Source: a bacterium (GTDB taxonomy: Bacteria; CLD3; SB21). Taken from it: 34,271 bases of DNA. The stretch covers positions 1-34,271 of the forward strand of contig JAIBAF010000038.1 of assembly GCA_019695335.1 (NCBI GenBank), written 5' to 3'. Under the pieces are notes generated by a model. That model saw nothing but the letters and a program-made list of their open reading frames with translations. It was not told where the DNA came from and ran no database searches. Position numbers and translations under genes: made by a program. Shown piece after piece: positions 9,606-34,271 of this stretch (the first letter of the stretch is position 1; every line of letters begins with the position of its first letter).

Positions 9606-12600
9606 TTAGAAAAACGCTCTGAATTCAGCCCCACCGATGTGAACAGTGTCAATACCCGGTTCTTTCCTCCCGGAATAGTTAACGGAAGCAGAAACATGGT
9701 TGCTAATGCGATATTCGGCTGTAAAAAACCATCGCGCATTCCATCCCCTGTTGTTGCCATCAATTAATTCAAACGGTAATGCAAAATTTGTTTTCTTCAC
9801 ATACATTCTCGTCAATTCGACATTAAGGTTTGCACGGCCTTTTTCCTTGAACGAAAAAATAATCTCAGGTTGATATGAAAGACTCTTTGCCGTCAGTAAG
9901 CTCAATCTGTCTTTTCCATAACTGACATAAAATTTATTACGCCATTCCCATTCCTGAACCGGACGAAACGATACCAATGGAACGAATTTGATCTTGTAGA
10001 TATTAAAATCAATATTCAATCCAGAAACCTGTATCGTCGAATATTTACGATTGATTTCATATTCCCATTCGCTCTCAATAGCCCATTTTGGCGACAACTG
10101 CTTTCTGATCCGCAGATTTTCAAGCTCGCGTTTTCGCTGTTCGTTGCCATCCACTAATAAATTGGTCATATTTTTTTGTAATTCGTATCTTAGGCGAATT
10201 GAAAAGTCTCTGGATGTCTGAAATCCATAAATGTCCTGTCTGAAAAGCAGAGAACCTTTGATGGTATTTTCTTCATTCTGAAATTTATTTAAATCGATAA
10301 AATAAAAACCGGTTGCCGGATTGGTTTGATTCTCTTCGACACGTAACAAAGTTTCTGTTGACAGGTAACGCATGATGTTTATCCATGTGCCTCCGTTCGC
10401 AATAGACTCTTCAGACAAAAATTTTACAGGTTCAAATCGGAAACGAAATCCAAATTTTAAATCAACAACGGGAGTAAAATTATTACCTCGAACCGAACCT
10501 TGAATATAATCGCCTTGCCCTTGCGGAACTTGTTTAAAACTATCGGCATCAACACGTACAAAATTTCCGGTATTAGGCTGCACCGGAATAAAAATTATTT
10601 TTCGGTCCTGAATGCGTTCTTCCGAAATTTGATAATTCACATCAATTTGTACAGCTCTATTGAAGGGAGAATAATCGATGTCTGAATTAATGAGTCTTGT
10701 AATTTTATCCGGATGGTCGGCTGTTTTGAACGATCCTTCGAATTTTTTTTCACGACGTATGAACTCAATCGACCCATTCAAAGATTTCCAGTCAATAATA
10801 TTAGTATAATATTTTTGAATAGTGCTGACTGAAACACGACCATCTAATGAATCAATTTCATTTTGCTGGCGATCAAAACGCCATTCGTACATAACACCCC
10901 ATCGTATCTTATCAAAACCTGTAAAATCCGCTTTCGGACGAAATATTTGATATCCCGTTCCATAGTTAGAATCGGAAGTGACTGATATCATGTTATCCAC
11001 AACTTCATCTTCGTAGTCCATTCCGAGAGTTGTTTTCCACATTTCATATGCGCTATTCAAATATTGACGGCGAATTTGGGATGAAAATAATCCTGATGAT
11101 GTTTTTGAATCAGAACTGATTTTTTCAACATTATATGCGATAAAAGATTTTGATTTAAAATCATACTGCCCGCCGCCACCATACCGCTCTGATTTCAACG
11201 AGCCGTTACCGCGATTTAGTTGCCCGTAAAATGAAGTCAGTTGCAATTTTTCTATCGGTCTGTATCTTAACAATCCGTCATCAAGTTCTTCGGCATAGTT
11301 TGCATTAAGCGGTAACGCATTCCAGTTACGCGCAAATTCAGCATCATCGACACGATCAATTTGCGTGAACGTACTGTCAACGCGGCGAAACCGTGCAGTA
11401 AAATCCACTTCTCCTAATTCGTTATTTCCAATTTTAATTTTTTGTTTGTCAATATTACCGTGAATATAGTACGCCTGCCCATTTTGTGATTTTGCAGAAT
11501 AGGCATTGCGATCGAAATTACTGAATGCCAATTCGCCTGCAATCAAGATATTTTTGGCAGGACGCACGTCCAGATTAAATACACCTATTTGCGTTTGAGT
11601 CGGTAATGACAGCGGTACCAGCGGCAGATAATTACCATTACCCTGGCCGACATAAATAAATTCCCCGAGAATCGATCCTCGACTATAAGCGCCATTTCCA
11701 TTGCCGAAATCTGTGAAACGAACGTTATAATCCCCGCTACTATCCCGCCCGACATAGACATAAATACTTTCAGCGCTAGCGATGTCAAATGCTTTTCTAT
11801 ACGTACCTTTACCGATATCAGAACGTGTGGCTCCGTCCACTAAGATCGAATTATTCCGTTGAGCTAAACTGTCATCGTCAATCATTGATAATGAATCCAA
11901 GGTAGATTCTGACAGCGACAAATTGATCGGATTGCTTTTGTCATCATACTCGTTAATGAAAAGGCTTCGAAGAGCAATTTTATTGTTGAACCAATTGGCT
12001 CCGGCCCGAAGCGATAAAGTATTCCTTCTAAAGACATCATCGGCATACTCGAAATCGACGACAATGCGGGATTCGGACGTAATCAAGCGTTTGCGTGTGA
12101 ACGTTATTTGTCCGGCGCTATAATCGACGACGTAATCATTGTCTTCGCCGCGAATCAATAGTACACCATTGAGCCAGACTTTTTCCGTTCCGGCAATGAT
12201 CAAAACATTACGTTCACCATTCCGCCCGGTGAGCTCGTACGGCCCTTGAACACCTTCCTGAATCGTCAATGTATTGGTAGCGTATTTACCTTTTGAAGTT
12301 GCAAATGCGGCATCGGCAAACCATCGATCGGTTTTACCCGACGCGCGCACGCCTTGAACTTGCCTGGAATAATTACCGAACTGCGTTCCCGAATAATTCA
12401 CATTAAAATCACCAAATGTCGCAATGTAGCGGTCGGCTTTTTTCACCTCGACAAATACTTTGTCGATTTCCTGTAAATTCTCGGTATTACCTTCGGGTTG
12501 GATCGGCAAATTTTCATCCGTCAATGATGCTTCCAATGTCACATCATCGCTGATGTTACCGGATATTTGAACATTGAGACCCGAATTGAGAGTAAAATCC

Positions 12601-13145
12601 TGGTTGGAACCGACGCTGAATCCGCGCGTAATACTCCCGGACCCTCGTAATTGCGACGTTTCAAAAAGGTTTCCGGATTGTTCATTGACCGTAATGATGT
12701 TCTTTTGAATGGTCCTTTTCAAACTATCGTCATAAAAGGAATGCGTAATCAACTCGCGATGAAACGCCGGCTTCGGAATGCCGAATGGAAATATTTTATA
12801 GACTACCCGTATTTCAACATCGGCTGACAATTCAAAATTAAATTTTATTCCTCCGGTTTTATAATCGATCCGATAATCGTCATTACGCTTTAATAACAAC
12901 TTTCCTGCGTAGATTTCTTCGCTTCCAAGAACAATCATTGAGTCCGGAAGAGAATAACCGGCATCATTGCCCTTACCGACAAATCGATATTCTTTTTTGA
13001 AGAGATTGATTGAGTGCGGTGATGTAATTTGAGGAAAGAAAAAAGCCGAAGAATCGATGGAAAATTGATGAGCCTGATTTTGCGCGAATACCAACGTAAT
13101 ATTTCCCAGAAGAAGCCATAGGAAACACGAGCAAAGCCGACTCAT
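9606..13145 (-). CDS. Large outer-membrane/surface beta-rich protein
   Basis: 1179 residues with a cleavable signal peptide (hydrophobic stretch up to LVFAQ at about 22). I do not recognise a named family. Two copies of a beta motif can be seen, NDDYRIDYKTGGIKF (about 87-101) and DNDYVVDYSAGQITF (about 340); this DY-x-(I/V)-DY-x-x-G-x-I-x-F pattern occurs in large secreted proteins of FCB bacteria. The region RGSGSITRGFSVGSNQD and the long second half are strings of alternating hydrophobic/polar strands with many Tyr, Arg and Asn, and the chain ends in AEFRAFF. A terminal Phe is the usual barrel-insertion signal, so I infer an outer-membrane beta-barrel in the second half. Its ATG touches the stop of the NHL gene (TAAATG), so translation is coupled. 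A distant relation to SprA-type gliding/secretion proteins is possible but not shown. Confidence 0.75.
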   Translation of the reverse strand: MSRLCSCFLWLLLGNITLVFAQNQAHQFSIDSSAFFFPQITSPHSINLFKKEYRFVGKGNDAGYSLPDSMIVLGSEEIYAGKLLLKRNDDYRIDYKTGGIKFNFELSADVEIRVVYKIFPFGIPKPAFHRELITHSFYDDSLKRTIQKNIITVNEQSGNLFETSQLRGSGSITRGFSVGSNQDFTLNSGLNVQISGNISDDVTLEASLTDENLPIQPEGNTENLQEIDKVFVEVKKADRYIATFGDFNVNYSGTQFGNYSRQVQGVRASGKTDRWFADAAFATSKGKYATNTLTIQEGVQGPYELTGRNGERNVLIIAGTEKVWLNGVLLIRGEDNDYVVDYSAGQITFTRKRLITSESRIVVDFEYADDVFRRNTLSLRAGANWFNNKIALRSLFINEYDDKSNPINLSLSESTLDSLSMIDDDSLAQRNNSILVDGATRSDIGKGTYRKAFDIASAESIYVYVGRDSSGDYNVRFTDFGNGNGAYSRGSILGEFIYVGQGNGNYLPLVPLSLPTQTQIGVFNLDVRPAKNILIAGELAFSNFDRNAYSAKSQNGQAYYIHGNIDKQKIKIGNNELGEVDFTARFRRVDSTFTQIDRVDDAEFARNWNALPLNANYAEELDDGLLRYRPIEKLQLTSFYGQLNRGNGSLKSERYGGGGQYDFKSKSFIAYNVEKISSDSKTSSGLFSSQIRRQYLNSAYEMWKTTLGMDYEDEVVDNMISVTSDSNYGTGYQIFRPKADFTGFDKIRWGVMYEWRFDRQQNEIDSLDGRVSVSTIQKYYTNIIDWKSLNGSIEFIRREKKFEGSFKTADHPDKITRLINSDIDYSPFNRAVQIDVNYQISEERIQDRKIIFIPVQPNTGNFVRVDADSFKQVPQGQGDYIQGSVRGNNFTPVVDLKFGFRFRFEPVKFLSEESIANGGTWINIMRYLSTETLLRVEENQTNPATGFYFIDLNKFQNEENTIKGSLLFRQDIYGFQTSRDFSIRLRYELQKNMTNLLVDGNEQRKRELENLRIRKQLSPKWAIESEWEYEINRKYSTIQVSGLNIDFNIYKIKFVPLVSFRPVQEWEWRNKFYVSYGKDRLSLLTAKSLSYQPEIIFSFKEKGRANLNVELTRMYVKKTNFALPFELIDGNNRGWNARWFFTAEYRISNHVSASVNYSGRKEPGIDTVHIGGAEFRAFF

Positions 13146-22406: not shown

Positions 22407-24140
22407 TTACCGTTTAGTCAATATTTTTTTGTATCCGTCCGCGTCGCGAAGAATTTTTACAGCTTCCTGGTATTGATGATCGTACCGGCTCGCCGCCATC
22501 GCGCTTGCTTTATGACCGTAATAACGCGAAATAATTTCCAATTCCAATCCGCGTTTGATCAAATCGTAATTCATATCAAAATCTTTATTTTTGACTTGCT
22601 TCACGGATTGCCCAAGATCGTCCAGTTTCGTCAGAAAGGCCTCATCGTAATCGCTTTTTTTAGAAATGTCCACCAGATTGTTCAGCGCCTTTTCTACAGC
22701 CGGAACATATGAAAATTTCTTCATTGTAAGATACTGCCGGAAATCTTCCATCAATATTGCATCGGCCGTGAATGTCGAATCGATCTTTTTGTGCTGCGCA
22801 ACAAAATGGGTCGCAAAATCAAAGATGATTCCTTTTTTCAAAATTTCCGTAAAAAATGTAGTGAATTCACGCGACGGAATCGCTACGTCCGGTGTAATGC
22901 CTCCATAGGCAAATACGGGTCGACCGGTTTTGGTCTTATACGGTAATACAGGTTTTTCATCTTCGCGCAAAGAGTCTTCAATGACTTCATCGACACCAAA
23001 CGTATCGTAAACCTCTTCATCACGTACAACTGATTGTGAACGGTGATATTTGGCCGAATAATCTTCTTTTTGAATGCAGCGTCCGCTCGGTGTAAAATAT
23101 TTAGCCGTCGTAATTTTCATAACGGCATTTTTTTCAGATAGTGGATACAATGTCTGAACCAATCCTTTGCCAAAAGTAGTCGACCCGATGATCACGGCGC
23201 GATCCAGATCTTGCAAAGCGCCGGCAACGATCTCAGCCGCGCTCGCCGTTCCGCCATCCACCAAAATGGCCAGAGGAATATCCGGAAGCATGGGATCGTT
23301 GGAAGCGGTATAATAGCGATTCGCGTCTGACGAGCGGCCTTTGGTAAAAGTAATCGTCTCCCCTTTTTTTACAAATTGATTGGTAATGTCAATCGCCGCA
23401 TCCAGTAAACCCCCGGGATTGCCGCGAAGATCAATAATCAATCCTTTCATTCCCTGCCGTTTCAATTCCTTCAAAGCCTGCGCCATATCAACGTCTGCTG
23501 TTTTCGAGAATTTGGTCAATTTGATATAACCGATTTGTTCCTGCGATACACTGGCATAGGCAATATTTTCAACGGCAATCATTTCGCGGATCAGTTCAAA
23601 TTCGATAGACGCCGATTCGCCTTCACGCATGATCGTGAGTTTAATTTTCGAACCCGGCTCTCCTTTGACGTAATTGGACATTTCCTGGTATTTCCAGTCT
23701 TTCGTCGAAAGCTCGTCCACCGCGATGATTCGGTCTCCGGGCAAAATACCCGCGCGTTGCCCGGGCGAACCGTCCGATGCTGAAATCACGGTAATGTAAC
23801 CGTTTTTGATACCGATCGATAAACCAATGCCGCCGTATTTACCCATCATCAGTGCATCGAGATCGCTGCTTTCATCGCCTTCGTAATACACAGTATAAGG
23901 GTCGAGTTTCGACAACAACCCGTCAATACCGGAACGGATAAAATCATGCGGCGTAATTTCATCCACATATTTTTCCGTTATGTTTTTATACACGTCGCCG
24001 AATAATCGCAATCCGCGCTTGACTTCATAATAATAATCGCCGCCTAACGACGTTTGGGCAAGCCATCCTCCGGTAAAAGCCGTCATCATCAACGCAACAG
24101 CCGTCATGACCGTTTTGGACTTGAGCGAGGGTAATTTCAC
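22407..24140 (-). CDS. C-terminal processing protease, S41 family (CtpA/Prc-like)
   Basis: A periplasmic serine protease with a Ser-Lys dyad. It has an N-terminal signal or anchor (VMTAVALMMTAFTGGWLAQ), an N-terminal domain, a PDZ domain (GIGLSIGIKNGYITVISAS to GDRIIAVDEL), and the S41 core with LRGNPGGLLDAAI, the catalytic Ser300 in GGTASAAEIVAG and Lys325 in TTFGKGLVQT, 25 residues apart as is usual. A 200-residue alpha-helical C-terminal extension follows. I prefer the GTG at 24140, because the Shine-Dalgarno-like GGAAGGTGAT ends four bases before it; a GTG at 24149 would add three residues. Seven bases or so separate it from the upstream peptidase gene. CtpA enzymes trim envelope proteins, including peptidoglycan hydrolases, so pairing with an M23 peptidase is meaningful. 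Confidence 0.95.
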   Translation of the reverse strand: MKLPSLKSKTVMTAVALMMTAFTGGWLAQTSLGGDYYYEVKRGLRLFGDVYKNITEKYVDEITPHDFIRSGIDGLLSKLDPYTVYYEGDESSDLDALMMGKYGGIGLSIGIKNGYITVISASDGSPGQRAGILPGDRIIAVDELSTKDWKYQEMSNYVKGEPGSKIKLTIMREGESASIEFELIREMIAVENIAYASVSQEQIGYIKLTKFSKTADVDMAQALKELKRQGMKGLIIDLRGNPGGLLDAAIDITNQFVKKGETITFTKGRSSDANRYYTASNDPMLPDIPLAILVDGGTASAAEIVAGALQDLDRAVIIGSTTFGKGLVQTLYPLSEKNAVMKITTAKYFTPSGRCIQKEDYSAKYHRSQSVVRDEEVYDTFGVDEVIEDSLREDEKPVLPYKTKTGRPVFAYGGITPDVAIPSREFTTFFTEILKKGIIFDFATHFVAQHKKIDSTFTADAILMEDFRQYLTMKKFSYVPAVEKALNNLVDISKKSDYDEAFLTKLDDLGQSVKQVKNKDFDMNYDLIKRGLELEIISRYYGHKASAMAASRYDHQYQEAVKILRDADGYKKILTKR

Positions 24141-24156
24141 TCGAATCACCTTCCTT

Positions 24157-26802
24157 TTATTTTGTTAAACCTACTTGTTCTTTTTCCCATTGTCCGATAA
24201 AACGCACTGCGTCAAAAGCGATCGTCCCTTTGCTTTGCCCGGTAGCATTGCTGGTATACACATAGACGTCGTCGTCAGCGTCAAAAGCATACGTACCCAG
24301 CGTCACCCATTCATCGGTAAATTTATTTTGATTTACTTTAACGGACTGAACACCGTTTTTATTATGAACTTCATACGTTGCCATTGCGGTTGCATATTTT
24401 TTCGGAATGTGCACCTGCACTTTATAATCGCCGGATCGCGGTAATTTTGGTTTCCATTTCACTTCGACGGTTTTAAGCGATTTAGTCACATTTACCCAAC
24501 GGTAACTGTGATAATAACCGCGCCTTTCAAACCATGTGTTGGGTATCTGCGGCTCATCGACAACAACGATATACGGCGGCTGATAATAATTATCTGAATT
24601 GAATGTTCCGCCGTTATACACCGTCTGTATGGCTGTAGAGTCGTTCTCAAATACCGGTTCCGGTGCTTGACAAATATCATCGACACGCAATTCCCAATGC
24701 ACATGCGGCGCGCTCGAACGTCCAGTTGTACCGCACGTTCCGAGTTCTTGTCCTTGTTTGACCGTTTCACCGATATCGACGGAAATGGTGGCTAAGTGTG
24801 AAACCAATGTTGTATACTTATGACCGCCGTACATATAATCAATTTTCACGGTCCGCCCGTAGCCCCGCATGTAGCCGGCAAACGCGACAACGCCATCCGT
24901 CGACGCACGAACCGGAAGACCGTAGTCACCGTCACTGCCTTCGTTCGATTCGGTATTGTTCAGATCCAGTGCATAACGAATGCCTCGGATGTGCCAGCCT
25001 TTATTGTAATAACTGCCACCACCACCCGCCGTCCACGCTCCCTGAAAAGGAAATTTATATTTAGGGAAATCTTCAACCACGACTTTAACCACGACGGGAT
25101 TAGACCACTGCCCGTTCTCATCCATAGCTTTGAAAAAAATGAAATGCGTACCGGGAAATAACTGCCGCGGTTGGGTTGTGAAACTCAACTGATCGCTCAG
25201 TTCGCCGTTGATACTGCTGCTCCAGCTAAATTTTACCGGTCGTTTGCCGTCAACGGCATGAACCTCACCTGCAAATCGTAATGTCTTGTACTTCCGGATT
25301 TTGATTTCGCCGGTACGAGCCTCTTCCTTGAGCAAATCCCAGATGCCGTGTTTGGCGCCACGACGAATACGTTTATCAAATACAATAATGCTCGACGCAA
25401 CTGTATCAATGCCGACTGAAAATTTTTTAGAAACGTCCGCTTTGTATTTGGTCACATCAACATTATTGCTGAAACTCAGCGCCAGCAAAGAATCATCTGC
25501 GCTTTCCCAACGGCTGGAATACGTCGTATCACGCGCCAGTTCGTCCCATTCGTCCCCATATGCGAGCGCATCACTTTCCATGCCGTCGGCTTGAGCTTGT
25601 AACGCCACCGATGGCGGTTTCAGAAAATAATTACGAAAATTCACCGATGATAAGGTCCAATTTCGGCCGCTATTGGCGGAATAAAAAATTTCTCCGTCAC
25701 CGCTGCTGCATAGAGCCACGGAAGCCGACAACGTCATAAAATGATACACCGCCTTATTAAATTCCGCGATTTTTGTCCATGTTTTTCCTTCATCATCCGA
25801 GGTAATAAGATTATAGGAAGCGAATTCTTGCGTTGCCGATGCAAAGTAATCCGATGGTACCAAATCTACACCGATCAATTGCCCGGACTGTATTGAAAAA
25901 TTTCCCACCAGTGTTTCGTTTATTTTAGTGTCTTTTTCATACGTTACGCGGCGAGTTTCTGACGAGGCAAATCCGTCGGAAGAATAGATCAGCACCGAAT
26001 TGCCATACTCATCACTGTCTTCGTTAATCGATTTTGCCAGTACATAAACCGTATCATGACTCATCTGCAAATTCGTACCAACCAAATTATAACCTGCATC
26101 GGCTTTCGCCTCTAATGCCGAAATCCATATATCGCCTCCGTCTGACGTTTTTAAAATCGTCAGGTTTTCTGGCGAAGAAACAAGATTGGCGAGAAGATAT
26201 CCCTTGTTTCCAGAAAACCGTAGCGAATGAAAAGTTCCCTGAAAACCTGTCGAAAACGATTTCCATGTTTTCCCGCCATCATTGGTTCTGAAAAGTTCAT
26301 CAGCCTGAGCCAGCGCCGACCCGATCATCCATCCGTTCAATGCATCGGTAAAAAATATTTGCTTCGGCGTAATATCTTCGGTAAAATTCATCGCCTTCCA
26401 CGTCTGTCCGTCGGTGGTAGCCAGGATGAATGTTTTGTCGGCGAAAACACGCGTGGCCACAACCCAGCAATGGCGCGCATCTAGCGCAAACAGATCGCGA
26501 ATTTCAATGCGCTCATCCGCGCTTTGCAAAACGGTCTGCAAAAACCAGCTTTGTCCGCCGTCGGTTGTTTTCAGCAGCATAGTTTTATAAACATTTTGTT
26601 TACCGATTGCATTGGTGAGACTGCTGTCGCCGGGATTTTTTACAACACCGCCGGTTTTGATCAAGCCCGCCGCCCATCCCGTCTGCTCATCCGCAAATGT
26701 AAACGTTACCGGTTTCTCAGCCGGCATCTTTTCCGTTTCACCGCTGTTTTGAAGAGTCAATGGAAAGAACATCAGAATCATTAACAAGAAAAAAACTGGC
26801 AT
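24157..26802 (-). CDS. Secreted propeller - M23 peptidase - golvesin-like multidomain protein
   Basis: 881 residues from the ATG at 26802, which has GAGG five bases upstream; a GTG two codons earlier lies inside that site. After a signal peptide come at least five YCF48/BNR-type propeller blades (TTDGGQSW, TNDGGKTW, TSDGGDIW, SDDEGKTW, SANSGRNW) to about residue 390. A linker and an Ig-like domain (about 500-565) precede an M23 metallopeptidase domain. Its ligands appear to be His604 and Asp613 (WHIRGIRYALDL), the SHLATI His, and His700/His702 in APHVHWEL. M23 enzymes cut peptidoglycan cross-bridges. The last ~135 residues (YYHSYRWVNVTK, GDYKVQVHIP, FDAVRFIGQ) match the golvesin/xanthan-lyase C-terminal fold. 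The first metal His is further from the Asp than in the classic H-x-G-x-D, so activity is likely but not certain. Confidence 0.88.
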   Translation of the reverse strand: MPVFFLLMILMFFPLTLQNSGETEKMPAEKPVTFTFADEQTGWAAGLIKTGGVVKNPGDSSLTNAIGKQNVYKTMLLKTTDGGQSWFLQTVLQSADERIEIRDLFALDARHCWVVATRVFADKTFILATTDGQTWKAMNFTEDITPKQIFFTDALNGWMIGSALAQADELFRTNDGGKTWKSFSTGFQGTFHSLRFSGNKGYLLANLVSSPENLTILKTSDGGDIWISALEAKADAGYNLVGTNLQMSHDTVYVLAKSINEDSDEYGNSVLIYSSDGFASSETRRVTYEKDTKINETLVGNFSIQSGQLIGVDLVPSDYFASATQEFASYNLITSDDEGKTWTKIAEFNKAVYHFMTLSASVALCSSGDGEIFYSANSGRNWTLSSVNFRNYFLKPPSVALQAQADGMESDALAYGDEWDELARDTTYSSRWESADDSLLALSFSNNVDVTKYKADVSKKFSVGIDTVASSIIVFDKRIRRGAKHGIWDLLKEEARTGEIKIRKYKTLRFAGEVHAVDGKRPVKFSWSSSINGELSDQLSFTTQPRQLFPGTHFIFFKAMDENGQWSNPVVVKVVVEDFPKYKFPFQGAWTAGGGGSYYNKGWHIRGIRYALDLNNTESNEGSDGDYGLPVRASTDGVVAFAGYMRGYGRTVKIDYMYGGHKYTTLVSHLATISVDIGETVKQGQELGTCGTTGRSSAPHVHWELRVDDICQAPEPVFENDSTAIQTVYNGGTFNSDNYYQPPYIVVVDEPQIPNTWFERRGYYHSYRWVNVTKSLKTVEVKWKPKLPRSGDYKVQVHIPKKYATAMATYEVHNKNGVQSVKVNQNKFTDEWVTLGTYAFDADDDVYVYTSNATGQSKGTIAFDAVRFIGQWEKEQVGLTK

Positions 26803-26814
26803 GAACACCTCAAA

Positions 26815-29061
26815 TTAATTCCATGAAGAAATATACCACAACGCAAAAGATCGTTTTTGTTCCAGTGCTTCGCGATCCATCGGTCGTTTGGCAACGACCA
26901 GAGCGCGATCATAATAAGTTATAGCTTTTTGCGCATTGAATAAACGAATCGAACTGTCACCGAGTCGTTGAAGCCTGTCTAATTCAAATATAGGATCGTT
27001 AAAACTGATGGTATCTAAAGTTGCCACGGCGTTTCCCCAGTTGCCTTGATTATGCCAAACCCGGCCTTTCCAATATACCGGTAATTTCAGTTTGGGGTTT
27101 TCTATAATTACACGCTCCAGAATATTCAACTGTTCGCCACGATTTTCAGTTTCCAGCAACTGTTTCAATGCGGACACCTGTTCAAGGTTATTAAAAAAAC
27201 TTAATCGTAAGTGGGCGCTGATATAGATATTCCGGATATGGCCATAATTCTTTAGTGCGGATGTGTAAATTGCCAAAGCGGAGTCAGGCTGGCTGAGTTG
27301 TAAAAACATATCGCCTTTCAAAACCATTGCTGAAGCCGACGCAGCGTAATTCATTTTTTTTGAATCGAACAATAAGTTTAGCGCCTCCAAAGCTTCGTCG
27401 AAATAGCGCGAATAATACCAACACCGTATGCGGCTCATTCGCAATCCATAATTATCCGGATCAATTGCCAAAGCCTGATCGAACCATCGGCCGGCTTCTT
27501 CATAATCATTGCGGGCGTACGCTTCAAATGCCTGTGCACTTATTTCGGCAACACGATGCGGGCAACGTCGCTGAAATAAACTCGGTTGAATCAAAAGTTC
27601 GGCAAAGTGAACATCCTGCTCTGTTATAACAATCGAATCCAAATTTTGCGACCACTCGCCGATCAAAGCTTCTCCGGTTTTGCGATACACTTCTTCCAAC
27701 GTGGAATCGTTGTAGGCATGCTTAAATCGTTCAATGCCGTACGTATCGATCAGAAATTTTACAAATGAACCGCTGATAATATAACTCATGCCCGAAGCCG
27801 TCCAAAAAAAATTTTCGCCCTCGATCATCGGTAAAACCGGAGGCAATTTATTTAATCGTTTTAAAGCTGCCGACCACTCGTGCGGCGTGAAATAATTTTC
27901 GTTCCACTCAATCGCTACAGCCAATCCTTCGAGAAAACCGATGCGGCGCGTACTGTAATACCGATTTGCAAATGCGCCTGCAAGAACGTGCACAATTTCA
28001 TGCCGGAGCACCGCTTCCGCTTCGTCAGCATTGACATGAATTTCATTGCGCCAGATTTTTGCGAAGTTGGTTGATCCGGCGCCCATGAGTTTTTTTTTCT
28101 GCTGCGCATCACGGTAAACAAACAGCGTTACCAGTCTGTCGGCTGATAAATTCAATGCCCGGTAATTTTGTCTGTAAAAAAACTCCGACTGCGCCGCAAG
28201 CAATCGTATCGACGTCGAATCAATACCGGGATCAAATTTCAACCGAACGTGCTGCGTCTGAATTTCACCGGCCAATTCAGCTTCGAGCTTGGAATACGAA
28301 ACATCAAAACCGATGGCTTCACGATTCAATTCAATTGCCAAAATTGACAGGGCAATCATTCCAGGCACCATCCATAAACGGCCGAAATCTTGTCCTGACT
28401 TTTTATTCCAACCATAAACGCCAATAAAGCCGAGAAACAATCCCCACAGCACTGTGCCAATGCGAAACCACACCAACGTTGAATCGATCGGTATCAGTTC
28501 GTCATAAATCGGTCCCGCAAAATAACCGAAAAAATTGGAATAAACAAAAATCGGAACGCGGCTGAAAACTATCCAAATATTATACGCAATGGCAACGACG
28601 ATAACAACGTATACGCTTGATTTTTGAAATCGACGAAACCAGCCGCTAAGGCCGTAACCCAAACTGCATCCGAAAATTGTGGCGGGAAGCGGCAACAGTA
28701 AGAACCAAAATAAACCTCGGGTGCCGCCGCATCCATTGGCAAAAAACGAATAGCCGAAAATCGTCAAAAATGACAATCCGGCATTGAGGATGCTTGTGAC
28801 TATAATTATAGAAAAAATATAGAGATTCGTCGTCCTTTTTTCAACGCTTATTTCGGCTAAAATTCTGGCCGATTCGGCAGCCCAGACCGGCGACGTAAAG
28901 ATTAAAATAACCGATAAAATTTCATTGAATTCATAATCAAATTCATTGAATAGCGGCTGAGTCAATAAAAGCAAGGTTGCGGCGAGTTGAAAAACGACGG
29001 ACGCTTTCGTCCAAAACGAACGTTTCCAAATCAGCCTATACGATTGGAGCAACGCGTTCAT
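26815..29061 (-). CDS. Membrane zinc metalloprotease (gluzincin, MA-like) with C-terminal TPRs
   Basis: 748 residues. The first ~260 hold about six to eight hydrophobic segments in an ABC-2-permease-like arrangement. Next is a peptidase-MA-like domain with the zinc motif HEIVH (His354, Glu355, His358) and Glu378 in GFLEGLAVA, the 20-residue spacing expected of gluzincins. After it come TPR-like repeats (AFEAYARNDYEEAGRWFDQA, IRCWYYSRYFDEALEALN, PDSALAIYTSALKNYG, RLFNAQKAITYYDRAL). The protease and TPR parts are probably extracytoplasmic. I do not know a named protein with this order; the joining of a multi-helix membrane domain to a gluzincin and TPRs is unusual. It begins three bases after the lipoprotein stop (TAGCCTATG) and ends 12 bases before the M23 gene. 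Targets unknown. Confidence 0.82.
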   Translation of the reverse strand: MNALLQSYRLIWKRSFWTKASVVFQLAATLLLLTQPLFNEFDYEFNEILSVILIFTSPVWAAESARILAEISVEKRTTNLYIFSIIIVTSILNAGLSFLTIFGYSFFANGCGGTRGLFWFLLLPLPATIFGCSLGYGLSGWFRRFQKSSVYVVIVVAIAYNIWIVFSRVPIFVYSNFFGYFAGPIYDELIPIDSTLVWFRIGTVLWGLFLGFIGVYGWNKKSGQDFGRLWMVPGMIALSILAIELNREAIGFDVSYSKLEAELAGEIQTQHVRLKFDPGIDSTSIRLLAAQSEFFYRQNYRALNLSADRLVTLFVYRDAQQKKKLMGAGSTNFAKIWRNEIHVNADEAEAVLRHEIVHVLAGAFANRYYSTRRIGFLEGLAVAIEWNENYFTPHEWSAALKRLNKLPPVLPMIEGENFFWTASGMSYIISGSFVKFLIDTYGIERFKHAYNDSTLEEVYRKTGEALIGEWSQNLDSIVITEQDVHFAELLIQPSLFQRRCPHRVAEISAQAFEAYARNDYEEAGRWFDQALAIDPDNYGLRMSRIRCWYYSRYFDEALEALNLLFDSKKMNYAASASAMVLKGDMFLQLSQPDSALAIYTSALKNYGHIRNIYISAHLRLSFFNNLEQVSALKQLLETENRGEQLNILERVIIENPKLKLPVYWKGRVWHNQGNWGNAVATLDTISFNDPIFELDRLQRLGDSSIRLFNAQKAITYYDRALVVAKRPMDREALEQKRSFALWYISSWN

Positions 29062-29064
29062 AGG

Positions 29065-29901
29065 CTACCATGCCGGCTGAAAAACACCGGCTGTTTCAAT
29101 GGCATTGACGATGTAGTAATAACGCTTAACGGATAATTTGGATGGCGCAAAAACTTTCAATTCGTATGAACGCCCATCACGGCTGATTTTGAGATGATAT
29201 TCGACCGGATACGAAACCGCGTATGAACTATCACTCGGCAATAACCAAACTTTATAATTTTCTAAAATTCTCCACAATTCCAGATACTCTGTCCAATCTA
29301 CATTAGCCGAACGATTGCCAAACACCTGAACGTTGTTCTCACGGTGAACAAATCGAACGGAATCAATCCGGTTATGTACACGATCCGAAACGGTTAAAAT
29401 AATACTGCTTTGTACAAAATCAAGTTTTTGAAATGTATCTTCGAAATGCTGTAATGCCCATTCAATAAATTTTCGATTATTTTTTTCAGACGGTAAACCA
29501 ACGAACGAAACGTTTTCATCTCCGTCAAACCTCATAACAAATTGATCGCCGGATCCTTCCGAGGCCATACTGCCATCGCCGGATTTCCACATTTCTGTCC
29601 GTGTCCATTCATAAAGATCCGTTGATTGATCGGGCGTCAATTCGAAGGTGTCCAACATGCCCGCACGTAATACTCCGCCTTCGCGGTAATCAAGAAAATC
29701 CGTTGAGGGGTTGGTGCGTACGACATAAAAAAGCGCACGCGTCGAATCCGTATCGCTTCGTTTCCACCCGAGAGTAATTTTGAACGCGTGGGCTGAATTA
29801 CTGACGGTCAATGTACGTTGCCATCCGGGAGGAAACACCGTTGAGGCAGGCCTGCAACTATTCAACACGATAAAGAAAGCAATAATCCATTGGCGTTTCA
29901 A
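29065..29901 (-). CDS. Lipoprotein of unknown function
   Basis: 278 residues if translation begins at the TTG at 29901. That start has GGAG about ten bases upstream, leaves one base after the preceding stop, and yields a clean lipoprotein signal, MKRQWIIAFFIVLNSC, with lipidated Cys. The ATG at 29925 would add eight residues that precede the charged part of the signal and would overlap the previous gene, so it is less likely. The mature part is beta-rich with many Trp, Tyr and Asp; I recognise no domain. Its location between a kinase/CMD pair and a membrane protease suggests an envelope role, but nothing in the sequence states one. Confidence 0.75.
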   Translation of the reverse strand: MKRQWIIAFFIVLNSCRPASTVFPPGWQRTLTVSNSAHAFKITLGWKRSDTDSTRALFYVVRTNPSTDFLDYREGGVLRAGMLDTFELTPDQSTDLYEWTRTEMWKSGDGSMASEGSGDQFVMRFDGDENVSFVGLPSEKNNRKFIEWALQHFEDTFQKLDFVQSSIILTVSDRVHNRIDSVRFVHRENNVQVFGNRSANVDWTEYLELWRILENYKVWLLPSDSSYAVSYPVEYHLKISRDGRSYELKVFAPSKLSVKRYYYIVNAIETAGVFQPAW

Positions 29902-29902
29902 A

Positions 29903-30235
29903 TTACTTGTTCTCCAATATATCATTTACCCAACTCAATGCGGCCATCATTGACGGAAAACCAACCGTAGTCAGAGCCAGAATGGCCACATGCCGGATTT
30001 CATCCGGTTTTGCTCCGGCTTCGAGAGATTTGCGAACATGTGAATGTACCGCACCCTCATGTTTCAATCCGATGGCAATGCCTAATTTAACTAACGCCGT
30101 TGTTTTAACGTTCAGGGGCCCCGCTTCTTTGCTGGCCTTGGAAAGGAGGTTGTAAGCCTTGGCTACATCAGGATAAGTTTTAACGAATTGGGTAAAGTGG
30201 GCCGGAAGTTTTTTCGGAGAAGCTTTTTTGGGCAT
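29903..30235 (-). CDS. Carboxymuconolactone decarboxylase (CMD/AhpD-like) family protein without the Cys pair
   Basis: 110 residues from the ATG at 30235, with a Lys-rich start (MPKKASPKKL). The CMD fold is marked by TTALVKLGIAIGLKHEGAVH, HVRKSLEAGAKPDEIRHV and TTVGFPSMMAAL. AhpD-type members have a CxxC followed by His that reduces peroxiredoxin; here those positions read HEGAVHSH, so no disulfide chemistry is possible, though His residues remain. Other Cys-less members of this type exist. The function is unknown; a small all-helical oligomer with catalytic or binding His is likely. A TTG at 30253 overlapping the kinase stop is an alternative start; neither has a good ribosome site. It lies ten bases after the kinase and one base before the lipoprotein. 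Confidence 0.82.
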   Translation of the reverse strand: MPKKASPKKLPAHFTQFVKTYPDVAKAYNLLSKASKEAGPLNVKTTALVKLGIAIGLKHEGAVHSHVRKSLEAGAKPDEIRHVAILALTTVGFPSMMAALSWVNDILENK

Positions 30236-30245
30236 GATTTTTTTA

Positions 30246-32390
30246 TCATTCAAATTGATATTCGATCTTCGTCGTGTTTAATGCCCTTATACGCAGCGTT
30301 ACTTCGTAGAATTTTTTGAATTGCGGATGTGCCAATCGTAATTTGTGGAATCCGGGTTTGACTTCCATTACGCTCGGCGTGGTCAAGTCTTTGACGCGAA
30401 CGGTGTTCAAATACACTTCCGCGCCTGGCGGCGTCGTGACAAGTTCGATAAATCCATTGGGATTGGAAAAAACAACCGTCACTTCCGTGGTATCGTTTTT
30501 TTCAACTTTCACGGCGCGTGATTTATTTTCGTTGCGGTAAACACCTTTGACGGTATGGTCATTGGCCAGCAGGTGATTCTGATAAAACGGAGTCGTACCG
30601 GAAATCGTTCTGTCATCGTCAAGATAAATTTCCGCGCCGGTCGGATTGGATTTGATCAGCAGCGTGCCGTACGTGGGTTTGAGCGAATCGGCCAATTCAA
30701 GCATCTCATCCGATTTGACTTCGATCGTTTTGTCGAGGTCTTCATATCCTTCAGCATGAATGGTGATATTTTGTTCTCCCACTTCAAGACTGTATGCTCC
30801 CGATCGTGTCCGGATTTGTTTTTTTCCATCGGCTAATAATGTCGCCGTTCCCGGAAAAACTTTATCGACCGATACCAGCCCACGTTGTTTTTCGAGCGAT
30901 AAATTGACATAACTGGTTTTATTTTTCAACAGAGCAACGTCACGTTTTTTATTCGAGAAATCCGGTTTTGAGAACAACAAAGTGTACCGCCCGCTCGGAA
31001 ATGCCAATTTATCAATCGGCGTATAACCTAAAAATTTACCATAACTGGTTTCCACTTTCACCATTTCCGGCACGGATTGAATGCTGAAATACGCCGTGTC
31101 GACATTCGGTGGAATCTCTACCGCCTTGAGTTGCAACGAGACATCAATCTTTTTTTCTTCTCCGGCAGCAAACACTAACGGCGCGGCGTATTCTTCATAA
31201 TGTTCGCGTCGCACGGAAAGAACGTGTTCACCAATATCCAGATTTTCGACGCTGACAACGGCGCCTTGAACATTGACCGGCTGACCGTCAATGGCCACTT
31301 CTGCGTCCGGCACATTTAATTTAACTGTCAACGACGGAGGTTTTCGACCCATCGCCAGTCTCGTAACGGCGTCAAACAAGCCGTGATGATCGCCCGACAT
31401 GAGCAGAATCAGAAGCAATGTGCTTACGCAAGCCCATGCAAAAGAGATCATATTGAAAATGCGGTTAGCAAATAATTTTTCAGTCTCCCGGCGCAAAATT
31501 GCAATCACCGTCCGGTCTTCGGCAAAGGCCAACTCCGTACCGACGGCATTGCCATTCAGAAATTCTTTGACGTTTTTCAAATGACGCGCCAGTTCTTCGA
31601 TCGATGCGTAGCGTTTGTCGGCATTTTTTTTCAACGCCTTCATTACAATATTGCTTAACATTGCCGGCAAAGTGGAATTCAAAGTTGCAGGCGCCGGCGG
31701 ATTATCGTTCACCACTTTGTACATAATCTCCGTCATATTTTTACCGGTAAAAGCTTTTTCGCCGGTGAACAGTTCGTACATCACTGCACCAACTGAAAAA
31801 ATATCGCTACGATAATCAACCGACTTGCCGGTAATCTGTTCCGGTGACATGTATCCGGGCGTACCGAGAATCGTCCCGATCACCGTACGCGTGGAAGTAG
31901 TAACTTTCGCAATGCCGAAATCCATGATTTTCGCCAAGCCCTCGTGACTAACAATAATATTGCCGGGCTTGATGTCACGATGGATCACGCCGAACCGGTG
32001 TGCATAAGTAAGACCTTCACATACCTGCAGCAATATATCAATGATCTTATCGAGAGGAAGATTTGTCTTCGCGCTGAGCATTTTTTCCAGCGTTGTGCCG
32101 TCGACAAATTCCATTGCGATGTACGACAAGTCGCCTTCTTCCTGAACATCGTAAATCGTCACGACGTTGGGATGCGACAGACGGCCGGCAAACTGAGCTT
32201 CGTGAAAAAAACGTTCGCGGAATTCTTTAACCTGAGCCTCCGTCATGTCGGCGCGAATTTGTAATGTTTTGATCGCAACAGTCCGGTTGATCCGGTCGTC
32301 CGATGCTTTATACACCACTCCCATTGCGCCTTGACCTAAAACGTCGAGAATGCGGTATCGTCCGAGTTTTTCTATTTTAAGATCTTGCAT
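30246..32390 (-). CDS. Membrane Ser/Thr protein kinase with five PEGA repeats
   Basis: 714 residues. Residues 10-275 are a Hanks-type kinase: the Gly loop GQGAMGVV (19-26), VAIK with Lys41, HRDIKPGN with Asp139, DFG at 157-159, and GTPGYMSPEQ. A transmembrane helix (about 311-332, FNMISFAWACVSTLLLILLM) should leave the kinase in the cytoplasm and the rest in the periplasm. Residues 350-714 form five consecutive ~70-residue PEGA modules, clearest in the last two (KSNPTGAEIYLDDD, VTTPPGAEVYLNTV). PEGA modules are found in surface or periplasmic proteins and probably bind the envelope. This gene is upstream of twelve tightly spaced genes with peptidases, so those products are candidate targets. 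The ATG at 32390 has no Shine-Dalgarno. Its C-terminus is colinear with that of the partial gene at the window edge. Confidence 0.95.
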   Translation of the reverse strand: MQDLKIEKLGRYRILDVLGQGAMGVVYKASDDRINRTVAIKTLQIRADMTEAQVKEFRERFFHEAQFAGRLSHPNVVTIYDVQEEGDLSYIAMEFVDGTTLEKMLSAKTNLPLDKIIDILLQVCEGLTYAHRFGVIHRDIKPGNIIVSHEGLAKIMDFGIAKVTTSTRTVIGTILGTPGYMSPEQITGKSVDYRSDIFSVGAVMYELFTGEKAFTGKNMTEIMYKVVNDNPPAPATLNSTLPAMLSNIVMKALKKNADKRYASIEELARHLKNVKEFLNGNAVGTELAFAEDRTVIAILRRETEKLFANRIFNMISFAWACVSTLLLILLMSGDHHGLFDAVTRLAMGRKPPSLTVKLNVPDAEVAIDGQPVNVQGAVVSVENLDIGEHVLSVRREHYEEYAAPLVFAAGEEKKIDVSLQLKAVEIPPNVDTAYFSIQSVPEMVKVETSYGKFLGYTPIDKLAFPSGRYTLLFSKPDFSNKKRDVALLKNKTSYVNLSLEKQRGLVSVDKVFPGTATLLADGKKQIRTRSGAYSLEVGEQNITIHAEGYEDLDKTIEVKSDEMLELADSLKPTYGTLLIKSNPTGAEIYLDDDRTISGTTPFYQNHLLANDHTVKGVYRNENKSRAVKVEKNDTTEVTVVFSNPNGFIELVTTPPGAEVYLNTVRVKDLTTPSVMEVKPGFHKLRLAHPQFKKFYEVTLRIRALNTTKIEYQFE
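30406..30497. repeat. Nucleotide repeat unit A (between PEGA genes)
   Basis: By eye these 92 bases align without gaps to 33311-33402 with 80 identical positions (about 87%). They encode the junction of PEGA modules 4 and 5 of the kinase. The match reflects gene duplication, perhaps refreshed by conversion. Confidence 0.7.
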
Positions 32391-33149: not shown

Positions 33150-34271
33150 TTACTCGAAAACGTAGTTCACACGGTTGGTGCTTTCCGGTCGCACACGCAC
33201 ATTCACTTCATAAAATTTTTTGAATGAAGGATGGACCAACCTGATTTTATGAAATCCCGGTTTGATCTCGAGTTTATAAGGCGTTTTGGAACCGTTACGT
33301 TTGACCGTATTCAAATAAATTTCCGCACCCGGCGGCGTCGTGACGAATTCGATAAATCCGTTAGGATTCGAAAAAACTACCGCCACTTCCGTAGTATCGT
33401 TGGCCGCAACTTTCACCGAACGTTTTTTCTCTTCGCCATCAAGCTTGCCGCGCAGAACATGCGTGTTGGCAATGAGCGATGAAATATATACCGGCGCGCG
33501 TCCGATCGGCGTCGTCGCATCATCAACGAATATTTCTGCGCCGCTTGGATTGGACTGAACTAAAAGCGAACCAAACACCGGTTTGAGTGTATCCCTTAAA
33601 CTAACCGTATCTTCAAACTGAACTAAAATTTTCTTTTCGATATTTTCATATCCATCGGCACGAATGGTTAAAACCTGCTCCCCTACTTCCACGCTGTAAC
33701 GGTTGGATCGTGGTGAGCGTGAGAGTTGTTTTCCGGAAATAAATAACGTCGCGTTATTGGGTGTGACATTTTCAAGCGAAACCACACCGCGCAATTTCTC
33801 AAGCCGGATGTCCATGACATTATTGCGCAAGCTCCGTAATGAGACGTCACGCCTGCGCGTCACGTAATCTTTTTTGGTGAACAACAAGGTATAGCTGCCT
33901 TCGGGAAACGCAAAATCTTCGATCGGCGTGTAACCTATAAATTTTCCTGTACTCGTTTCGATCTTGGCCATAGGCGGATCGGTCCGGATAATAAGAAACG
34001 CAGTATCCACTCCGGCGGGAATTTCCACCGGCAGTAATCGCAAAATTACGTCGATTTCTTTTTTCTCTCCGGCTCCGAAAATCAATGCCGTTTCATAGGT
34101 TTCGTAGAAATCGCGTTTGACAACCAATTTATGTTCACCGACGCCAATGCTGTCGAAGTTCAGCACATCCATTCCCGTCGGGTATTCCTTTCCGTCGATT
34201 GAAACAATCGCATCGGGCACGTTCAGTTTCATCAACAACGCAGCGGGGTGTTGTTTACTCAACGATTGAGC
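33150..34271 (-). CDS. Five-PEGA-repeat protein, probable C-terminus of a second Ser/Thr kinase (5' end cut by window)
   Basis: The frame stays open to the window edge (codons AQS precede a TTG at 34262), so the true start is outside; a start at that TTG would give a cytoplasmic PEGA protein with no signal and is unlikely. The 373 visible residues align without large gaps to kinase residues ~345-714: MKLNVPDAIVSIDG matches VKLNVPDAEVAIDG, and the last 70 residues share 44 identities by eye with the kinase C-terminus. All five PEGA modules are retained, so the missing part is expected to hold a transmembrane helix and kinase domain. The terminator at 33091-33120 follows it. It is convergent with the SWIB gene. 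Confidence 0.85.
   Translation of the reverse strand, partial: AQSLSKQHPAALLMKLNVPDAIVSIDGKEYPTGMDVLNFDSIGVGEHKLVVKRDFYETYETALIFGAGEKKEIDVILRLLPVEIPAGVDTAFLIIRTDPPMAKIETSTGKFIGYTPIEDFAFPEGSYTLLFTKKDYVTRRRDVSLRSLRNNVMDIRLEKLRGVVSLENVTPNNATLFISGKQLSRSPRSNRYSVEVGEQVLTIRADGYENIEKKILVQFEDTVSLRDTLKPVFGSLLVQSNPSGAEIFVDDATTPIGRAPVYISSLIANTHVLRGKLDGEEKKRSVKVAANDTTEVAVVFSNPNGFIEFVTTPPGAEIYLNTVKRNGSKTPYKLEIKPGFHKIRLVHPSFKKFYEVNVRVRPESTNRVNYVFE
33311..33402. repeat. Nucleotide repeat unit B (between PEGA genes)
   Basis: The partner of 30406-30497, about 2.9 kb away in the same orientation. By eye 80 of 92 bases are the same with no gap. It encodes the PEGA 4-5 junction of the truncated paralogue. Confidence 0.7.

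Follow-up and report, generated by a model that had tools for sequence, protein, structure and literature searches.

A predicted periplasm-facing gluzincin protease joined to an ABC-2-fold membrane domain and TPR-like repeats, in a family seldom accompanied by an ATPase gene

A minus-strand gene of 748 codons encodes a protein in which an N-terminal membrane domain with the fold of an ABC-2 permease is followed by a gluzincin protease domain and a TPR-like tail. The same protein order recurs in relatives across many phyla, with an invariant protease site. On balance, we think it probable that the 748-aa protein is a zinc metalloprotease of the inner membrane, faces the periplasm and stands on an ABC-2 (type V exporter) base that has lost its ATPase. 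The open reading frame (ORF) is uninterrupted, begins with ATG and is single-copy in its own genome in full-length and membrane-domain searches. Its features are listed below with positions in the window, i.e. the whole stretch of 34,271 nt that was analysed; fractions of 102 refer to distinct sequences (115 rows minus duplicates).

26815..29061, minus strand: gene of the 748-aa protein, with ABC-2-fold membrane domain, gluzincin domain and TPR-like tail
28312..29061, minus strand: membrane domain (aa 1-250), with an N-terminal helix, six ABC-2-like helices and TM7, from fold models, VIA-align and positive-inside counts
28729..28731, minus strand: Cys111 (periplasmic loop 2), which may form a disulfide with Cys500; Cys in 101/102
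28468..28560, minus strand: periplasmic loop 3 (aa 168-198; GYFAGPIYDE here, GYFPGPIYD in the family), the best-conserved part of the membrane domain (mean 2.82 bits)
27592..28299, minus strand: gluzincin domain (aa 255-490) with M9-collagenase-like fold, from a structure match; PF13485 below cut-off
27988..28002, minus strand: HEIVH zinc-binding motif (aa 354-358); H354, E355 and H358 invariant (102/102)
27928..27930, minus strand: Glu378 (in EGLAVA), presumed third zinc ligand judging by the fold; E378 and G379 invariant (102/102)
27562..27564, minus strand: Cys500, where the protease meets the TPR tail; Cys in 102/102
26821..27561, minus strand: TPR-like tail (aa 501-747), from Pfam TPRs, the model and TPR/BamD-like structures

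Hydropathy and AlphaFold2 give seven membrane helices (residues 16-32, 43-71, 79-107, 113-141, 143-167, 194-222 and 231-250), where a preliminary description made from the sequence had counted six to eight segments and likened them to an ABC-2 permease. The full-length model has a pLDDT of 94.1 and a pTM of 0.91, and that of residues 1-262 alone 91.4 and 0.90. The fold bears out the likeness: all 50 VIA-align matches listed for the membrane-domain model are ABC-2/ABCG/ABCA/ABCH-type transporter domains, the best being NosY (7o12_E; Z 14.7, rmsd 3.5, 212 residues aligned, target of 246 residues). Matches of ABC-2/type V exporters to the TM1-6 fold have Z values of about 12-14.7 over about 210 residues, where helical bundles can reach values near 13-14 by chance; we take the match as true because the list is uniform and one whole domain is covered. 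The assignment rests on a re-examination of the Foldseek list, because Foldseek by itself gave weak matches to the membrane domain (best E 0.049, to ABCG1).

Lysine and arginine residues number 3, 3, 3 and 3 in the inside loops and 0, 0 and 1 in the outside loops, and these positive-inside counts place the N-terminus in the cytoplasm. TM7, which falls beyond the ABC-2-matching range (1-225), should lead the chain into the periplasm, so that the protease and TPRs are predicted to be periplasmic. The counts thereby displace the earlier suggestion of a ‘membrane-embedded’ protease, and the 748-aa protein is not an intramembrane protease.

The gluzincin site, described beforehand as intact, holds up well. 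HExxH and the downstream glutamate, 20 residues past His358, are present in 102/102 sequences within a thermolysin-like fold, which assigns the domain to the gluzincins (clan MA), with zinc binding predicted; Y427 and G431 are likewise invariant (102/102). The nearest solved fold for residues 255-480 is that of M9 collagenase peptidase domains from Vibrio, Grimontia and Clostridium (7esi_A: Z 15.9, rmsd 3.2, 217 aligned), although identity is 8-13%, there is no Pfam or profile match to these enzymes and the 748-aa protein is not secreted. We rejected a chance HExxH, as HExxHx18-20E appears in 0.125% of 20,000 composition-preserving shuffles of the protein, and also retrieval bias, as the patterns used to search for relatives did not contain HExxH. 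The motif and its order are far above chance because HExxH and the glutamate are invariant in relatives retrieved without HExxH.

Neither the membrane part nor the protease part has a Pfam or NCBIfam name at curated cut-offs, the TPRs alone being named, in line with the preliminary description. A weak profile match to PF13485 (Peptidase_MA_2) runs across the HExxH...EG...YxxxGSF core of the family, with 13.0 bits (E 0.091) in the 748-aa protein against a Pfam cut-off of 32.4; E is <= 0.1 in 5 of 10 relatives scanned, the best reaching 28.1 bits, and none of the 11 proteins scanned exceeds the cut-off. Pfam M9 has no match at E <= 1 in the 748-aa protein or at E <= 0.1 in the ten relatives, Pfam M1 and M48 domains have none at E <= 1 in the 748-aa protein, and a PDB sequence profile search with the protease alone gave no meaningful match.

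The TPRs reported after the protease are confirmed. TPR models exceed the Pfam cut-off at about residues 510-606, helices continue to residue 747 in the AlphaFold2 model, and TPR matches are among the best 60 of 304 in a PDB sequence profile search with the full protein. Their proposed use as substrate docks is plausible by analogy. At the head of the tail, Cys500 could pair with Cys111 in a disulfide clamp that holds the base to the protease. The sole exception among the 102 distinct sequences (L010 / G003) has Leu at 111 and keeps Cys500, and provides a natural test of the proposed C111-C500 disulfide.

A first search found matches in 12 of 60 genomes, 5 of the 12 lying outside the window's family. 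A scan of named genomes produced 205 pattern matches, with 188 confirmed relatives, of which the best 80 were used as loci. About 50 of the 80 loci are labelled Poribacteria; other labels are Latescibacterota, Myxococcus/Corallococcus/Pyxidicoccus, Deltaproteobacteria, Gemmatimonadetes, Zixiibacteriota, Nitrospinota, Planctomycetota, Bacteroidetes and others. The alignment contains the window protein and 73 of the 78 proteins extracted from these loci; it omits the near copies L056, L061, L062, L066 and L071, and L070 and L089 were not among the extracted proteins. The whole architecture is kept, since 71 of the 74 aligned proteins are 723-873 aa long; two of the three shorter ones (494, 508 and 606 aa) stop at a contig edge.

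A profile of the membrane domain without the protease matched 33 of 290 genomes. The same ORF has HExxH...E at all 30 loci inspected, and the remaining three matches are two weak ones (frames of 136 and 531 aa) and G277, where the protease is present (L163). With a protease-only profile, the outer relatives L155, L157, L159 and L163 were found to have multi-helix N-termini too; the more distant gluzincins of the superfamily (L158, L161, L165 and L164) are without them. The outer members G105, G147, G230 and G277 were assessed by eye and are excluded from the counts. The fusion of membrane domain and protease is kept wherever tested. The literature searched, which covered few subscription papers or preprints, yielded no account of an ABC-2/gluzincin/TPR architecture. 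An unnamed protein with an invariant protease site in many phyla makes a strong candidate for a general role in the envelope, and homologues in cultivable myxobacteria make it experimentally accessible.

Two properties beyond the preliminary description were newly recognised, a missing ATPase and an inverted pattern of conservation. No ATPase-motif ORF occurs in the window. Within about 1.8 kb, such an ORF is found at 1 of 78 family loci (L064), and at none of the 61 loci whose flanks are complete in both directions; the figure for genuine ABC-2 controls is 16 of 20. Over the whole length of the fetched loci, the family count is 6/78. The controls are PF12679 (ABC2_membrane_2) ABC-2 permeases from the relatives' genomes, chosen by ORF length (~240-300 aa). 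A wider signature motif was applied to controls and family alike for these proximity counts, and a narrower ATPase motif gives 11/20 controls and 2/78 family loci. The ABC ATPase at L064:2967-3875, two genes upstream, is the only one close to a relative and could be either chance or a surviving partner.

In the family, mean conservation is 2.62, 1.99 and 2.82 bits in the periplasmic loops, 1.77 bits in the middle cytoplasmic loop, 0.99 bits in the last, 0.86 bits in the N-terminal helix and 2.35-2.73 bits in the protease. The TM2-TM3 cytoplasmic (ATPase-docking) loop has 1.04 bits in the family and 2.62 bits in the ABC-2 controls, where it is highest and the outer loops are lowest (1.32-1.88 bits), a comparison of patterns and not of absolute values, as control conservation is unweighted and family conservation weighted (effective number 28.5). 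A conserved TM2-TM3 coupling loop, a type V exporter trait, is thus absent from the family, and in some members the loop is shortened. On the outer side, Gly179 (102/102), Tyr186 (101/102) and Asp187 (98/102) stand out in loop 3, followed by R200 (102/102). Read most simply, the base has retained and refined its protease-facing side and lost ATP coupling.

The 748-aa protein shares the arrangement of an N-terminal helix and TM1-6 with ABC-2/type V exporters such as NosY, ABCG1 and ABCG2; unlike them, it has no nearby ATPase gene or conserved docking loop, and it adds TM7, a periplasmic protease and TPRs. ABC-2/M1 fusions are defined by an M1 domain, two ABC-2 halves and an ATPase alongside. 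Genomes of four relatives contain ORFs of 1163-1347 aa (L227-L230) with about 12-13 hydrophobic segments, ABC-2-type double membrane domains, a C-terminal M1-type HExxH domain and an adjoining ABC ATPase gene, which we take to be of the architecture named ‘ABC-2 permease fused to M1 aminopeptidase’. These fusions likewise place a gluzincin behind an ABC-2-type membrane domain. They differ from the 748-aa protein in having about 12 helices instead of 7 and an M1 instead of an M9-like domain; an ATPase gene adjoins them, whereas the 748-aa protein is without an ATPase and carries TPRs. An ABC-2 domain with a C-terminal gluzincin therefore has a precedent, from which the 748-aa family is set apart by its number of helices, its type of peptidase, the TPR tail and the lack of an ATPase.

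The gene lies in a tightly packed run of minus-strand genes, with the lipoprotein gene 3 bp upstream and the next gene 6 bp downstream.

30246-32390, minus strand: Ser/Thr kinase with PEGA domains (Pfam)
29903-30253, minus strand: carboxymuconolactone-decarboxylase-family protein (Pfam)
29065-29925, minus strand: lipoprotein of 286 aa with a lipobox-like LNSC (read by eye), upstream of the 748-aa ORF
24157-26808, minus strand: M23 peptidase with BNR and golvesin domains (Pfam)
22407-24149, minus strand: S41 protease (Pfam)

The lipoprotein has no Pfam match, and an internal duplication was rejected since its halves lack BLASTP similarity (E 15). As cluster 16, it is present at 6 of the 80 loci, adjoining the protease gene in each, and only in the window's own family. 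The order lipoprotein, 748-aa homologue, M23-golvesin and S41 is intact in L017-L019 and partial in L008 and L010. Clustering of the neighbours of all 80 loci found no partner gene common to several phyla; the neighbours vary by phylum. A candidate family-wide partner, a neighbour at 31 loci that looks by eye like a sugar-kinase/nucleotidyltransferase-like protein, was rejected as it is restricted to the poribacterial group. The lipoprotein, M23 and S41 genes are conserved neighbours in the window's lineage but not in other phyla; in this lineage the 748-aa protein probably serves envelope maintenance, in one operon with the M23 murein hydrolase and the S41 protease. The preliminary description had raised phosphorylation of the 748-aa protein by the kinase, and the upstream lipoprotein as a substrate. 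The topology argues against phosphorylation: the kinase domain, N-terminal with a hydrophobic helix after it, would for that reason be cytoplasmic, and it should not reach the protease, TPRs or lipoprotein on the predicted periplasmic side.

We propose that the ABC-2 base dimerises as ABC-2 half-transporters do. Its conserved outer face (E44, C111, the GYFPGPIYD loop and R200), together with the putative C111-C500 disulfide, would fix the protease above the base's membrane exit and so set the active site near the bilayer. The TPR tail may dock substrates, partner proteins or assembly machines, by analogy with that of BepA and LptD/BAM. The protease would then act without ATP, processing or degrading lipoproteins, the ectodomains of membrane proteins or envelope proteins in transit. 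Envelope proteins are the likely substrates, and the 748-aa protein probably trims or removes proteins immediately outside the inner membrane. If this reading is right, the family shows a transporter fold that shed its ATPase but retained its outer face, a case relevant to the conversion of transporters into scaffolds or proteases. More tentatively, and we consider it doubtful, an ABC exporter fold was converted early to an ATP-independent protease platform, in which an exit gated by the outer loop and an E44/R200 charge pair feeds membrane- or lipid-linked substrates to a disulfide-locked gluzincin; if true, membrane proteases would gain a new class.

Other explanations share some of this evidence. 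The membrane domain could be a mere anchor without a catalytic role, and the protein, like BepA, a protease for processing or quality control in the periplasm. BepA (M48 and TPR, periplasmic) has the same order of HExxH protease and TPRs and appears (6ait) among the Foldseek matches; according to PMC8423444, BAM and LptD are contacted by its TPR domain. However, BepA belongs to family M48, lacks such a membrane domain and has no sequence-family match to the 748-aa protein; an anchor would have no need of the (near-)invariant outer-loop residues C111, G179, Y186 and R200, and the seven-helix domain is retained across phyla. We judge this explanation unlikely.

Quite improbable, in our view, is a working ABC exporter half whose ATPase is encoded elsewhere, with the protease trimming departing cargo as the ABC-2/M1 fusions might. 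The ABC-2 fold, the ATPase genes beside those fusions in four genomes and the L064 ATPase all favour it, but the near absence of ATPase genes within 1.8 kb, set against the controls, speaks against it, as does a docking loop that is among the least conserved parts and shortened in some members. In NlpI-Prc and LbcA-CtpA, a TPR adaptor brings murein hydrolases to a C-terminal processing protease, and a lineage-specific partner of this kind for the M23 hydrolase and S41 protease would fit the gene order that L017-L019 have in full and L008 and L010 in part. Yet those neighbours are confined to the window's family while the protein is more widespread, and it has an intact active site of its own, making this explanation very unlikely. 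An ATP-independent, periplasm-facing protease on an ABC-2 base is the reading that we prefer.

Some further observations concern the window and its genome. Two PEGA-repeat proteins are encoded close together on the minus strand (33150-34262 and 30246-32390), one of them the membrane Ser/Thr kinase, and an ORF of 1179 aa at 9606-13145 (minus strand) has no Pfam match at E <= 1. The window's genome also contains a second gluzincin of the Peptidase_MA superfamily, below the Pfam cut-off, at a contig end (L164; G000 contig 10), fused to a WD40-like/TolB propeller (PD40) and an Omp85-type barrel. The protease-only profile also matches many long ORFs similar in size to L164 in other genomes.
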